From: Myxococcota bacterium
GTDB lineage: Bacteria > Myxococcota_A > Bradymonadia > UBA7976 > UBA1532
Length of the DNA: 64,000 nt
Reading direction: 5' to 3'
NCBI GenBank assembly: GCA_963169045.1
Contig: CAUJDF010000041.1
Coordinates: 128,872 to 192,871, forward strand
Shown: in pieces, positions 25,790 through 40,221 of the stretch
How positions within the stretch are numbered: position 1 is the stretch's first letter
How the letters are laid out: each line of letters opens with the position of its first letter
The notes under the pieces: model-generated
What the model saw: the letters and a program-made list of their open reading frames with translations, nothing else
Told to the model about the DNA's origin: nothing
Databases searched by the model: none
Position numbers and translations under genes: made by a program

Positions 25790-26650
25790 TTACCAGAAGA
25801 TGTGCTGGCGCTCGGCCAGCCCGCGCCGCAGCAGCGCGTCGACGGCGTCGCGCACCTGGGCCACCTTGGCCCCGATGGAGGCGTCCTCCTCGTCGGCCTC
25901 GCCTTCGAAGCGCATCGGCTCGCCGAACCAGATGCGGTACTTCACCGGCAGCGGCAGGAGGCCGAGCGGCCCCGCCAGCGGGAAGAACGGCGTCACCGGC
26001 ACGGCGGGGATGCCCAGCACCTTCGCCAGCGCCTCGAGGTTGGCCACCGCCGGGTACTGCTCCTCGGCGCCGATGACGCCCACCGGCACGATCGGGGCCT
26101 TGCTCTCGAGCGCGAGGCGCATGAATCCGTTGCCGAACCCCTGGAGGCGGTACGCCTGGTCGTAGGTCTTGTTGATCCCGCGCACGCCCTCGGGGAAGAC
26201 GAGGATCGCGTGCCCCTGGTTGAGCAGCACGCGGCAGTTCTCCGGCGTGCCGAGCACTTGCCCGACGCGCGCGAAGAGCGTGCTGACGAAGGGCAGCGTG
26301 GGCACCCAGCGCTCGACCATCGAGCGGACGGCCCGCGGCGGGCGGGCGTCGAACAGCATCGACGAAGCGATCATCATGCCGTCGAGCGGGATCTGCCCGC
26401 TGTGGTTGCTGACGAGCAGCACCCGGCCCGGCGGCACGTGCTCGATACCGTGGGCCTCGACGCGGAAGTAGTGGCGGTAGAGCCACTGCACGGCGCCGGC
26501 GACGACCTTGATCGAGTCGGGGTCGAGGCCGAAGTCGTCGGTCGCCCGCCCGCCGAGATCGGCCTTCAGCGCCTCGATGCGCTCGACCACCTCGTCGTCG
26601 AGTCGTCCTTCGAGGGCCCGCCGGATGCGCTCCGCGGCTTCGCCCAGCAT
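25790..26650 (-). CDS. Lysophospholipid / glycerol-phosphate acyltransferase family protein (PlsC-like)
   Basis: 286 aa. Contains the LPLAT motifs: NHSGQIPLDG (motif I, with wider H-to-D spacing than classic HX4D), a GTPENCRVLL segment (motif II region), FPEGVRGINK (motif III) and VPVGVIGAEEQYP (motif IV). The spacing of motif I is like that of MGAT/TMEM68-type members. It likely acylates a lysolipid or a glycerol at the inner membrane. The ATG at 26650 follows AAGGAAA. It is first in an operon with the SDR protein and divergent, across 76 bases, from the glycerol-1-phosphate dehydrogenase gene. Confidence 0.85.
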   Translation of the reverse strand: MLGEAAERIRRALEGRLDDEVVERIEALKADLGGRATDDFGLDPDSIKVVAGAVQWLYRHYFRVEAHGIEHVPPGRVLLVSNHSGQIPLDGMMIASSMLFDARPPRAVRSMVERWVPTLPFVSTLFARVGQVLGTPENCRVLLNQGHAILVFPEGVRGINKTYDQAYRLQGFGNGFMRLALESKAPIVPVGVIGAEEQYPAVANLEALAKVLGIPAVPVTPFFPLAGPLGLLPLPVKYRIWFGEPMRFEGEADEEDASIGAKVAQVRDAVDALLRRGLAERQHIFW

Positions 26651-26726
26651 GCGGGGATTTCCTTCACGCCGTCCGGCGCGCATTCTACGCCTTCACGATC
26701 CCGACGGAAGTCCCGAGTCGCCCCGC

Positions 26727-27995
26727 ATGAAACTGACCGACTTCGTCCCCGTCCCCCTGCCCGCCGGACACCCGCTGCCCGAAGAGGTCCGCGTCGGCCC
26801 CGGTCGCCGCGCCGAGCTCGCCGACGTCGCCGCGCGGCACCTCGCCGGGACGTGGCTGCGCGTGGGCGATCCCGACACGCTCGCCGCCGCCGGCGACCCG
26901 CTGCCCGACCTCGAGATGTTCCGCCTCGAGCGCCACCCGCACGCCGACGACGAGACGGTGGCCCGCGCCGTCGCCGCAGCCCGCGGAGCCGGGGGCCTGG
27001 TGGCGATCGGCAGCGGCACTGTCAACGACGTCGCCAAGCGCGCCGCGCACGAGCTCGGCATCCCCTACGTCGTGCTCGGGACGGCGGCGAGCATGAACGG
27101 GTACGCCAGCGGCATCGCGGCGCTCCTCAGCCGCGGCCTGAAGATCACGGCGCCGGCGCGCCCGCCGCGCGCCATCTTGCTCGACACCGACATCCTCGCC
27201 GCCGCGCCGCTCGCGCTCACGCGCGCCGGCCTCGGCGACCTGCTCAGCAAGCCGGTGAGCGACAGCGACTGGTGGCTCGCGGACCGGATCGAGGGCACGG
27301 GCTACTCGACGCTGCCGAGCCTCGTCACCGACGCCGCCGTCGCCGACGCCACCGCCCACGCGGCGGGGCTGGCGACGGGCGATCGCGACGCCCACGCCGC
27401 GCTCGGCCGCGCGCTCGTGCTCAGCGGCGTGGCGATGGTCGTCGCCGGCAGCAGCGCCCCGGCGAGCGGCGGCGAGCACCTGCTCAGCCACCTCTGGGAC
27501 ATGGAGGCGCTCGCCGCCGGACGCGAGACGCGCCTGCACGGCGCGCAGGTGGGCGTCGCGACGTGCATCTCCGCCGCGCTCTACCAGCGCCTGCTGCGGG
27601 CGACGCCGGTCTTCACCGAGCCGCCGCCGTGGGAAGACGAGGCGGCGCGCCTCCACGCCGAGCACGGCGCCCTGGCCGACTCGGTGCTCGGCCCGGCGAA
27701 GCGCAAGCACGACCGGGCGGCGGCGCGCGTCGCGCTGCTGCGCGATCGGTGGCCGGAGATCCGCGACGGCCTGGCGGCGCGCAAGCTGCCGACGCCCGCC
27801 GAGGTGCGCGCGCCGCTCGCGGCGTGCGGCGCACCCAACACGTTGGAACACCTCGGGATTTCTCGCGCGGATGCCGCGCGGGTGCTGCGGATCGCGCGCG
27901 ACATCCGCGACCGCGTGACCGTGCTCGACGTGGCGTTCGAGATCGGCGTGCTGCCGAGGGCGATCGGCGACGTGCTGGACGACGCCGGCGTGTGA
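26727..27995 (+). CDS. sn-Glycerol-1-phosphate dehydrogenase family protein (Fe-ADH type 2, AraM-like)
   Basis: 422 aa. Belongs to the family that reduces dihydroxyacetone phosphate to sn-glycerol-1-phosphate, the archaeal-type lipid backbone; bacterial AraM is the known bacterial example. Motifs: nucleotide loop IGSGTVNDVAKRAA, GTAASMNGYAS, AGLGDLLSK, and the metal ligands in SGGEHLLSHLWDME and LHGAQVGVA. Relatives usually have HGEQVG, so one residue beside the ligand differs. The C-terminus is longer than in AraM. ATG at 26727. Its stop touches the opposing rnhC stop: TGA and TCA abut as TGATCA at 27993-27998. Confidence 0.82.
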   Translation: MKLTDFVPVPLPAGHPLPEEVRVGPGRRAELADVAARHLAGTWLRVGDPDTLAAAGDPLPDLEMFRLERHPHADDETVARAVAAARGAGGLVAIGSGTVNDVAKRAAHELGIPYVVLGTAASMNGYASGIAALLSRGLKITAPARPPRAILLDTDILAAAPLALTRAGLGDLLSKPVSDSDWWLADRIEGTGYSTLPSLVTDAAVADATAHAAGLATGDRDAHAALGRALVLSGVAMVVAGSSAPASGGEHLLSHLWDMEALAAGRETRLHGAQVGVATCISAALYQRLLRATPVFTEPPPWEDEAARLHAEHGALADSVLGPAKRKHDRAAARVALLRDRWPEIRDGLAARKLPTPAEVRAPLAACGAPNTLEHLGISRADAARVLRIARDIRDRVTVLDVAFEIGVLPRAIGDVLDDAGV

Positions 27996-33576: not shown

Positions 33577-33942
33577 TCAGCCTCCCCGATAGACCACCCG
33601 CGAGACGTCGTTCTCCCGCAGCACGAGCTGCGTGAGGCCCGGCAGCGCCGGCCGCAGGCGGTCCCAGATCCACGTCGCGAGCACCTCGCTCGTCGGACTC
33701 TGCAACCCCTCGATCTCGTTCAGGTAATGGTGGTCGAGCCGGTCGCGCAGCGGCTTGAACGCCGCCTCGATGTCGCCGAAGTCGGCGACGAAGTCGGTGC
33801 GCGGGTCGATCGCGCCCGTCACGTGGATGTCGAGGTAGAAGGCCAGGCCGTAGAGGTTGCCGCACGGGTGCCCGGGCGGCACCTTGGTCAGGCGGCGCGC
33901 CGACTCGAAGCGCACCGTGTGGATCAGCTCGTAGGTGGCCAC
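33577..33942 (-). CDS. QueD/PTPS-family protein lacking all three zinc-ligand histidines
   Basis: 121 aa, full QueD length. It aligns by eye with 6-carboxytetrahydropterin synthase over its whole length: DPRTDFVADFGDIEAAFKPL, RLDHHYLNEI, NPTSEV-like SPTSEVLATWIWDRLRP and the ending VVYRGG. The catalytic Cys (PCGNL) is kept, and so are the His pair in LDHHYL and the Glu of LREND. The zinc ligands are not: the E-A-A-H-R position reads ESARR and the L-H-G-H position reads LYGLA. It should not be taken as a working QueD without proof. The GTG at 33942 has GGAGGAA upstream. It starts 17 bases after the next gene's stop on the same strand. Confidence 0.78.
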   Translation of the reverse strand: MATYELIHTVRFESARRLTKVPPGHPCGNLYGLAFYLDIHVTGAIDPRTDFVADFGDIEAAFKPLRDRLDHHYLNEIEGLQSPTSEVLATWIWDRLRPALPGLTQLVLRENDVSRVVYRGG

Positions 33943-39174: not shown

Positions 39175-40221
39175 TCAGTCGCGGTGGGCGGGATCGACGT
39201 AGAGGTGCTCGCCGCCGAGCGGGCTGCGCAGGATCCAGTGTCCCGGGCGGTCGCCCCGGCGCACGAAGTCGCTGTCGACGGGCACCTTGCCGCCTCCGCC
39301 GGGGATGTCGATGACGTAGGTGGGCCACGCGAGCCCCGTGAGCCGGCCGCGGAGCGCGCGGGCGATGCTCAGGCCGCGGTCCAGGCTCACCCGGAAGTGA
39401 CCCGTCCCCACCGTCAGATCGGGGTGGTGCAGGTAGTACGGGCGCACCTGGTGCTCGAGCAGGCCGGTGAACAGCGCCGCCAGCACCGACGCGTCGTCGT
39501 TCACGCCGGCGAGCAGCACCGTCTGGTTCAGCACCGTCACGCCGGCGTCCACGAGCGTCCGCAGCGCCAGCGCCGAGGCCGGCGTGAGCTCGCGCGGGTG
39601 GTTGAAGTGCGTGACCAGGAACAGCGGGCGGTGCGCCGCCAGCAGCGACGCCAGCGACGCGTCCACCCGCATCGGCAGCGTCACCGGGAAGCGCGTGTGG
39701 ATGCGGACGCGGCGCACCGAAGGGATGGCGCGGAGACGCCCGAGCAGCTCGCCGAGCCGGTCGTCGGACAGCATCAGCGGGTCGCCGCCGCTGAGGATGA
39801 CCTCGGCGATCGCGGGGTGCGCGCGCAGGTAGTCGAGGGAGGCGTCGAGCGCCTGCCGCAGCCGGATGGGCTCCCCGTTGATCGCGACCTTGCGGAAGCA
39901 GTAGCGGCAGTACATCGGGCAGCGGAACGTGGGGAACAGCAGCGCGCGGTCGGGGTAGCGATGCACGAGCAGCGGCGTGGGCGCGTGGGCCGCGTCCCCG
40001 ATGGGATCCGACCGCTCCTCCGGCGCGACGACGAGCTCGGCGGCGTCGGGCAGCGCCTGCTTGCGGATGGGGCACGCGGGATCGGCGGGATCGATCAGCG
40101 AGAGGTAGTAGTCGCTGACGAGGAGCGCGTATCGCTCGACCACCGCCTCGAGCGCGGGCGCGTCGTCGGCCGACACGAGGCCGCGTTCGACCAGCGCCCG
40201 TACGTCGCGGGCGCCGCGCAC
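39175..40221 (-). CDS. KamA-family radical SAM aminomutase (lysine 2,3-aminomutase-like)
   Basis: 348 aa from the GTG at 40221. Radical SAM cluster motif CPMYCRYC (4Fe-4S), the SAM-side SGGDPLMLSD, and PLP lysine in PGGGGKVP. The substrate-binding Asp positions of KamA are matched by HPDLTVGTGHFR and IDIPGGGG. It is shorter than clostridial KamA and lacks its extra N-terminal and zinc Cys segments. It would convert L-lysine to beta-lysine, or a similar amino acid; EF-P modification (EpmB) is less likely because EpmB lacks PGGGGK. The reading frame is open further upstream, with a family-like DRWSRHL segment and only a CTG overlapping the previous stop (CTGA at 40254-40257), so the real start may be upstream. 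Confidence 0.8.
   Translation of the reverse strand: MRGARDVRALVERGLVSADDAPALEAVVERYALLVSDYYLSLIDPADPACPIRKQALPDAAELVVAPEERSDPIGDAAHAPTPLLVHRYPDRALLFPTFRCPMYCRYCFRKVAINGEPIRLRQALDASLDYLRAHPAIAEVILSGGDPLMLSDDRLGELLGRLRAIPSVRRVRIHTRFPVTLPMRVDASLASLLAAHRPLFLVTHFNHPRELTPASALALRTLVDAGVTVLNQTVLLAGVNDDASVLAALFTGLLEHQVRPYYLHHPDLTVGTGHFRVSLDRGLSIARALRGRLTGLAWPTYVIDIPGGGGKVPVDSDFVRRGDRPGHWILRSPLGGEHLYVDPAHRD

Follow-up and report, generated by a model that had tools for sequence, protein, structure and literature searches.

A conserved clade of PTPS-family proteins lacking the three zinc-ligand histidines in Myxococcota and Poseidoniia archaea

Results

A QueD-like gene with a replaced zinc site

The window, a 64,000-nucleotide stretch of a Myxococcota genome, carries a short gene of the PTPS/QueD type in which the three histidines that bind zinc in QueD are replaced (Table 1); we call such proteins zinc-less, with reference to the missing ligands. 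The gene lies on the minus strand, a detail missing from the original prediction, and its translation reads ...RFESARRLTKVPPGHPCGNLYGLAF...LDHHYLN...LRENDVSRVVYRGG. Membership of the PTPS family (PF01242, COG0720) follows from a Pfam score above the curated cut-off (E 7.2e-25, 87.7 bits against 22.4) and from the tunnel fold. With the AlphaFold2 model (mean pLDDT 96.4), the top PDB matches found by Foldseek were E. coli QueD chains (TM 0.96, rmsd 1.0 Å), and the nearest solved structures in a phmmer search were likewise E. coli QueD entries (4ntm, E 4.5e-38). The likeness to QueD/PTPS-I (4ntk, 4ntm, 3qn0) extends to length, to most of the core and to residue numbering, which takes the GTG codon as residue 1 and coincides with the E. 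coli QueD numbering; the Foldseek alignments show 46–48% identity. Among the fold matches, Acinetobacter QueD2 (7v0f) is a remote one (TM 0.71, 14–16% identity).

The alignment to E. coli QueD is gap-free across both active-site motifs. It bears out the replacement of all three zinc ligands announced in the original prediction (H16R, H31Y and H33L) and, equally, the retention of the cysteine, the Asp-His pair and the C-terminal glutamate. Residues were counted in 97 aligned PTPS rows, namely 26 zinc-less, 65 zinc-complete and six of a type termed R-HGH, where His16 is Arg and HGH is kept. All 26 zinc-less rows retain E13, C27, D70, H71, N75, E86 and E110, among them the full set of QueD catalytic residues (Cys27, Asp70, His71 and Glu110, the last being presumably the pterin anchor, as in the QueD/PTPS literature). 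Five further differences from QueD accompany the lost ligands and are nearly fixed: K26P and T111N in 26/26 rows, S34A and C116V in 25/26, and G115R in 24/26. From this pattern of residues, the zinc-less proteins appear to have dispensed with the whole zinc site, and would then carry no metal there, while keeping the rest of the active site.

The protein does not fit the known motifs. Where QueD/PTPS-I has C-x3-H-G-H (CxxxHGH), the window protein has C-x3-Y-G-L (CGNLYGL), and neither the PTPS-II motif CxxxxxHGH nor the PTPS-III motif ExxHGH is present. According to PMC5041015, the defining motifs of PTPS-I, II and III, the three main subfamilies, contain the zinc-binding HGH. The NCBIfam QueD equivalog cut-off of 89.25 bits is also not reached by the window protein (73.8 bits), nor by two zinc-less homologues, L012 (79.2 bits) and L003 (79.0 bits). 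Since both the QueD motif and this cut-off fail, the protein should not be filed as QueD.

Table 1. Positions of the zinc-less gene, its active-site codons and related loci. Window positions are given for the first seven rows; L numbers denote loci fetched from other genomes.
Feature	Position	Strand	Remarks
Zinc-less PTPS/QueD-like gene	33577..33942	(-)	121 aa; GTG start at 33942, TGA stop at 33577-33579
Arg16 codon, replaces zinc ligand His16	33895..33897	(-)	R in 26/26 zinc-less rows, H in 65/65 zinc-complete
Cys27 codon, retained catalytic cysteine	33862..33864	(-)	C in 26/26
Tyr31 codon, replaces zinc ligand His31	33850..33852	(-)	Y in 26/26
Leu33 codon, replaces zinc ligand His33	33844..33846	(-)	L in 25/26, Q in one (L181)
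Asp70-His71 codons, retained catalytic pair	33730..33735	(-)	26/26 each
Glu110 codon, retained glutamate	33613..33615	(-)	E in 26/26
R-HGH loci, Thiobacillus order	L019 7998-8351; L210 1384-1818; L211 1468-1821		
R-HGH loci, Poseidoniia bins	L178, L182, L183, L185, L187, L188		
Metallo-beta-lactamase-fold gene followed directly by zinc-less PTPS	L012 7221-8357; L177, L179-L181, L184, L186, L189-L196		

Zinc-less proteins form a single clade under purifying selection in two domains of life

Scanning the genome collection yielded 80 relatives, and the best 10 of these 80 all carry the R/Y/L triple. Nine of the ten loci come from Myxococcota or Deltaproteobacteria records (68–78% identity), and the tenth belongs to a Candidatus Poseidoniia archaeon (58% identity; L012, genome G066). 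An additional carrier among the relatives of the window genome (G011) brings the Myxococcota carriers to 11, including the window; in a motif search, HPCxxxYGLAF was present in 9 of 377 Myxococcota genomes. For Poseidoniia, 20 regions at shorter PTPS matches were fetched, of which 14 contained a zinc-less gene and six a different paralog. Together with G066 this makes at least 15 carriers in the 194 genomes examined, a lower bound because the regions had been picked mostly for short match length. The G066 contig looks truly archaeal, judging by the neighbours of the zinc-less gene, which we take to encode an aIF1A-like protein, a RIO-type kinase and a KH-domain protein. The zinc-less set thus comprises 26 sequences, from 11 Myxococcota genomes and 15 Poseidoniia archaea.

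For phylogeny, PTPS matches of at least 60 bits and at least 95 residues were kept, giving 131 distinct sequences that divide at the three ligand positions into 98 HHH, 25 RYL, six RHH and one RYQ, plus L001, which is zinc-complete by eye. A quick tree was built from 97 of them, every second zinc-complete row of the named collection being taken, and a careful tree from 60 rows, 58 of which belong to the 97. In the careful tree, calculated with masked trait columns at the three ligand positions, all 26 zinc-less rows fall in a single clade with 100/100 support. The 11 Myxococcota rows do not form one clade in the best tree, and their monophyly is not rejected (p-AU 0.31).

In all eight close pairs compared, dN/dS lay between 0.045 and 0.196. 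The residue pattern, the clade obtained with masked columns and these low ratios establish that the zinc-less proteins are a functional subfamily, not products of decay. A decaying gene or a sequencing error, the other possible origin of the triple, is refuted by the selection on the genes and by the conservation of the residues, and nothing was found in its favour: the reading frames are open, dN/dS does not exceed 0.20, and the same residues are each seen in 25 or 26 of the 26 genomes, which span two domains of life. Beyond the window, R16 and Y31 occur in another 25 genomes and L33 in another 24, so that these changes are not sequencing errors. The view that the gene is not undergoing random decay, and the suggestion that the triple might mark a clade of its own, both held. 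Three-histidine homologues at this locus in close strains would have spoken against that view, and none was seen; three loci from same-family genomes (L007, L009 and L010) have flanking genes in common with the window and possess the R/Y/L form at that place.

Two mobile origins were also considered and set aside. A single IMG/VR pattern match lay within a ribonucleotide-reductase-like open reading frame, in another frame, and is attributable to chance. As to plasmids and phages, tblastn returned only matches below 60% identity, on which measure alone these were judged.

The R-HGH proteins (ARRL...HPC...HGH) were found in 3 of 300 Thiobacillus-order genomes and at six loci of Poseidoniia bins. 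They share with the zinc-less clade an Arg in place of His16 and HPC instead of HKC; unlike it, they keep HGH, and they form their own group (support 81/95). The quick 97-row tree joins R-HGH to R-YGL (SH-aLRT 89), whereas in the careful 60-row tree the R-HGH group does not stand beside the zinc-less clade. As the quick-tree grouping was not recovered, we do not claim a stepwise loss in which His16 went first and HGH next. In the Thiobacillus bin G067 the R-HGH protein is the only PF01242 match and a strong QueC is also present; there it may serve as a QueD with an altered metal site.

Most bacterial carriers have an additional, zinc-complete PTPS

The search for HPPK, FolB, FolE and QueC covered 36 chosen genomes, 27 of which were also searched for MptE and MptD. 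The original prediction had proposed to look elsewhere in the window genome for a zinc-complete PTPS and for QueC, and both were found: a second PTPS with intact motifs (CASHQL, CRELHGH) and a QueC (E 3e-76). At least one further PF01242 match occurs in nine of the ten other Myxococcota carriers, the exception being G064/G007 (2.7 Mb, 67% complete), so that most of these bacteria have the zinc-less protein on top of a zinc-complete one. FolE and HPPK were detected in 11/11 Myxococcota carriers and FolB in 10/11. In the Myxococcota loci examined, which represent two different neighbourhoods, no recognised pterin gene stands beside the zinc-less gene. Elsewhere in the window, a plus-strand gene (26508-27995) encodes an Fe-ADH_2 family protein (PF13685) that by eye resembles glycerol-1-phosphate dehydrogenase, an enzyme of archaeal-type lipids that would be unusual in a bacterium. 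A minus-strand gene (39175-40221) encodes a radical SAM protein matching the lysine-2,3-aminomutase C-terminal domain (PF04055, PF12544).

Gene duplication followed by repurposing typically leaves such an additional copy beside a zinc-complete one. Together with the loss of all three zinc ligands, it is what one would expect of a catalytically dead pterin binder (a sensor, carrier or regulator) whose pocket is kept for binding only. We hold this to be rather improbable, though it deserves serious attention: Cys27, Asp70, His71 and Glu110 are invariant in 26/26 sequences, and a catalytic Cys and an Asp-His pair are needless for mere binding. Moreover, the zinc-less protein is the sole PF01242 match in 6 of the 15 archaeal carriers.

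The coexistence of zinc-complete PTPS and QueC with the zinc-less protein in the window genome would also suit a zinc-sparing isozyme, which carries out the QueD reaction metal-free or with another metal when zinc is scarce. PMC2770081 describes the backing up of zinc enzymes by zinc-independent counterparts as a strategy, and the Zur-regulated QueD paralogs presented there resemble our case in being a second PTPS-family copy in the genome; those paralogs, however, conserve the zinc ligands, so that the zinc-less protein is not a known Zur zinc-sparing paralog. No COG0523 or zinc-uptake gene was recognised among the seven neighbouring window ORFs scanned. A strong QueC match, finally, was obtained in only 4/11 Myxococcota and 6/15 archaeal carriers, which would suggest that the carriers have no general need of QueD activity alongside the zinc-less protein, and we regard a zinc-sparing role as unlikely. 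At two loci, L113 (G057) and L116 (G065), a zinc-complete QueD is located next to an ORF that by eye is QueE-like, with no strong QueC match.

PTPS active sites sit between subunits, and the zinc-less protein might thus be one subunit of a mixed oligomer with a zinc-complete PTPS, giving residues to shared interface active sites. In L006 (8001-8921) and L008 (8001-8900) the two genes stand in direct tandem, the zinc-complete one following and containing an insertion. Such tandems exist in only 2/11 Myxococcota carriers, however, and the zinc-complete partners are of different PTPS types. The heteromer suggested in the original prediction is further weakened because 6/15 archaea have no other PF01242 match and because the catalytic residues are all present in the protein's own chain; we consider it improbable.

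Nearly all archaeal carriers lack a recognisable dihydroneopterin aldolase

FolB, the dihydroneopterin aldolase, was detected in 1/15 archaeal carriers, as against 9/9 Poseidoniia controls. The lone carrier FolB (L247 3-299, minus strand, genome G072) is incomplete, truncated where its 6.5-kb contig ends, and is possibly foreign sequence in the bin. The nine controls had been picked from genomes with a PF01242 match about 420 bases long; three of them (G075, G077 and G079) were assessed on the PTPS sequence itself and the rest on match length only. MptD, the archaeal aldolase, was found in none of the 27 genomes searched (15 carriers, nine controls and three Myxococcota). HPPK was absent from all 24 Poseidoniia searched and is uninformative as an archaeal control, and MptE, the 6-hydroxymethyl-dihydropterin pyrophosphokinase that acts after the aldolase, was used instead. 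An MptE-like match is present in 13/15 archaeal carriers, 11 of them over the curated cut-off, and in 4/9 controls, none over the cut-off. If 13/15 is taken as the detection rate, the missing FolB is not explained by incompleteness alone. With an MptE-like protein kept and FolB and MptD missing, the carriers seem to require an aldolase product without having an aldolase gene to make it, and the zinc-less PTPS is a candidate for this step. FolE was not found in 8/15 archaeal carriers, which makes the source of the substrate unsure and counts against this role.

The gene order is the same in 15/15 archaeal loci: aIF1A, RIO kinase, KH protein, a metallo-beta-lactamase-fold gene and then the zinc-less PTPS, which abuts or overlaps the gene before it. 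The metallo-beta-lactamase-fold protein is RNase Z/phosphodiesterase-like: it belongs to PF12706, its nearest models being those of RNase Z. Since all these loci come from one Poseidoniia lineage, the common order is weak evidence of function. It also counts against an aldolase role that FolB was probably lost only once among these archaea, in a single lineage whose genomes are small and in part incomplete.

Discussion

The zinc-less proteins are a new variant inside the PTPS family, set apart by motif from PTPS-I to -III, with which the comparison was made. Our literature search, whose coverage did not extend to Phillips et al. 2012, the main PTPS-subfamily paper, returned no recognised description of a PTPS/QueD clade free of zinc ligands.

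We tentatively favour, with a probability of roughly 0.4, a metal-free tunnel-fold enzyme acting on the side chain of a dihydropterin, Arg16 and Tyr31 taking over from zinc. The activity, substrate and product set out here are what we infer from residues and gene content. A dihydropterin would be bound and its C6 side chain cut or rearranged without a metal. In the pocket, the side chain would be held and polarised by Arg16 and Tyr31, aided by the co-varying Asn111 and Arg115, instead of by zinc acting on its oxygens; the acid-base roles would fall to Cys27 and Asp70-His71. The product would probably be 6-hydroxymethyl-dihydropterin in the archaeal carriers, where it would close the dihydroneopterin-aldolase gap before MptE. 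FolB is itself a metal-free tunnel-fold protein, and the zinc-less PTPS is predicted to share its reaction; as folds, the two match weakly (best E 5e-3, TM 0.45) and they belong to different sequence families.

A metal-free enzyme is favoured by the clade recovered with masked columns, the catalytic residues kept in 26/26 sequences, the coherent swaps at 24 to 26 of 26, the low dN/dS and the unchanged fold; the archaeal distribution of FolB (1/15 against 9/9), MptD (0/15) and MptE-like proteins (13/15) favours the filling of a gap. The absence of an adjoining pterin gene from the Myxococcota loci examined counts against a metal-free pterin enzyme. So does the presence of FolB (10/11) and HPPK (11/11) in the Myxococcota carriers, which leaves no aldolase gap there. 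A precedent comes from malaria: as PMC2229834 describes, a PTPS can bypass the missing aldolase there via a Cys-to-Glu change. Like this PTPS-III, the zinc-less clade belongs to the PTPS family and is proposed to make up for a missing FolB by providing 6-hydroxymethyl-dihydropterin. The solutions differ, PTPS-III having exchanged its catalytic Cys for Glu and kept the zinc histidines, whereas the zinc-less clade has kept the Cys and lost the histidines (PMC5041015 and PMC2229834). The fuller proposal is that a metal-free pterin aldolase arose from a zinc-dependent QueD and replaced FolB/MptD in the Poseidoniia lineage, in an operon with the metallo-beta-lactamase-fold hydrolase; we advance it as a speculation with the odds against it. 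If true, it would add a further chemistry to the PTPS family and exemplify the loss of a catalytic metal from an enzyme.

For annotation, naming these proteins QueD or PTPS from similarity only would mislead. Occurring in both bacteria and archaea, the clade offers a natural test of the need for zinc in PTPS chemistry, and it supplies a concrete candidate for an aldolase step that is missing from the way in which a group of marine archaea makes pterins.
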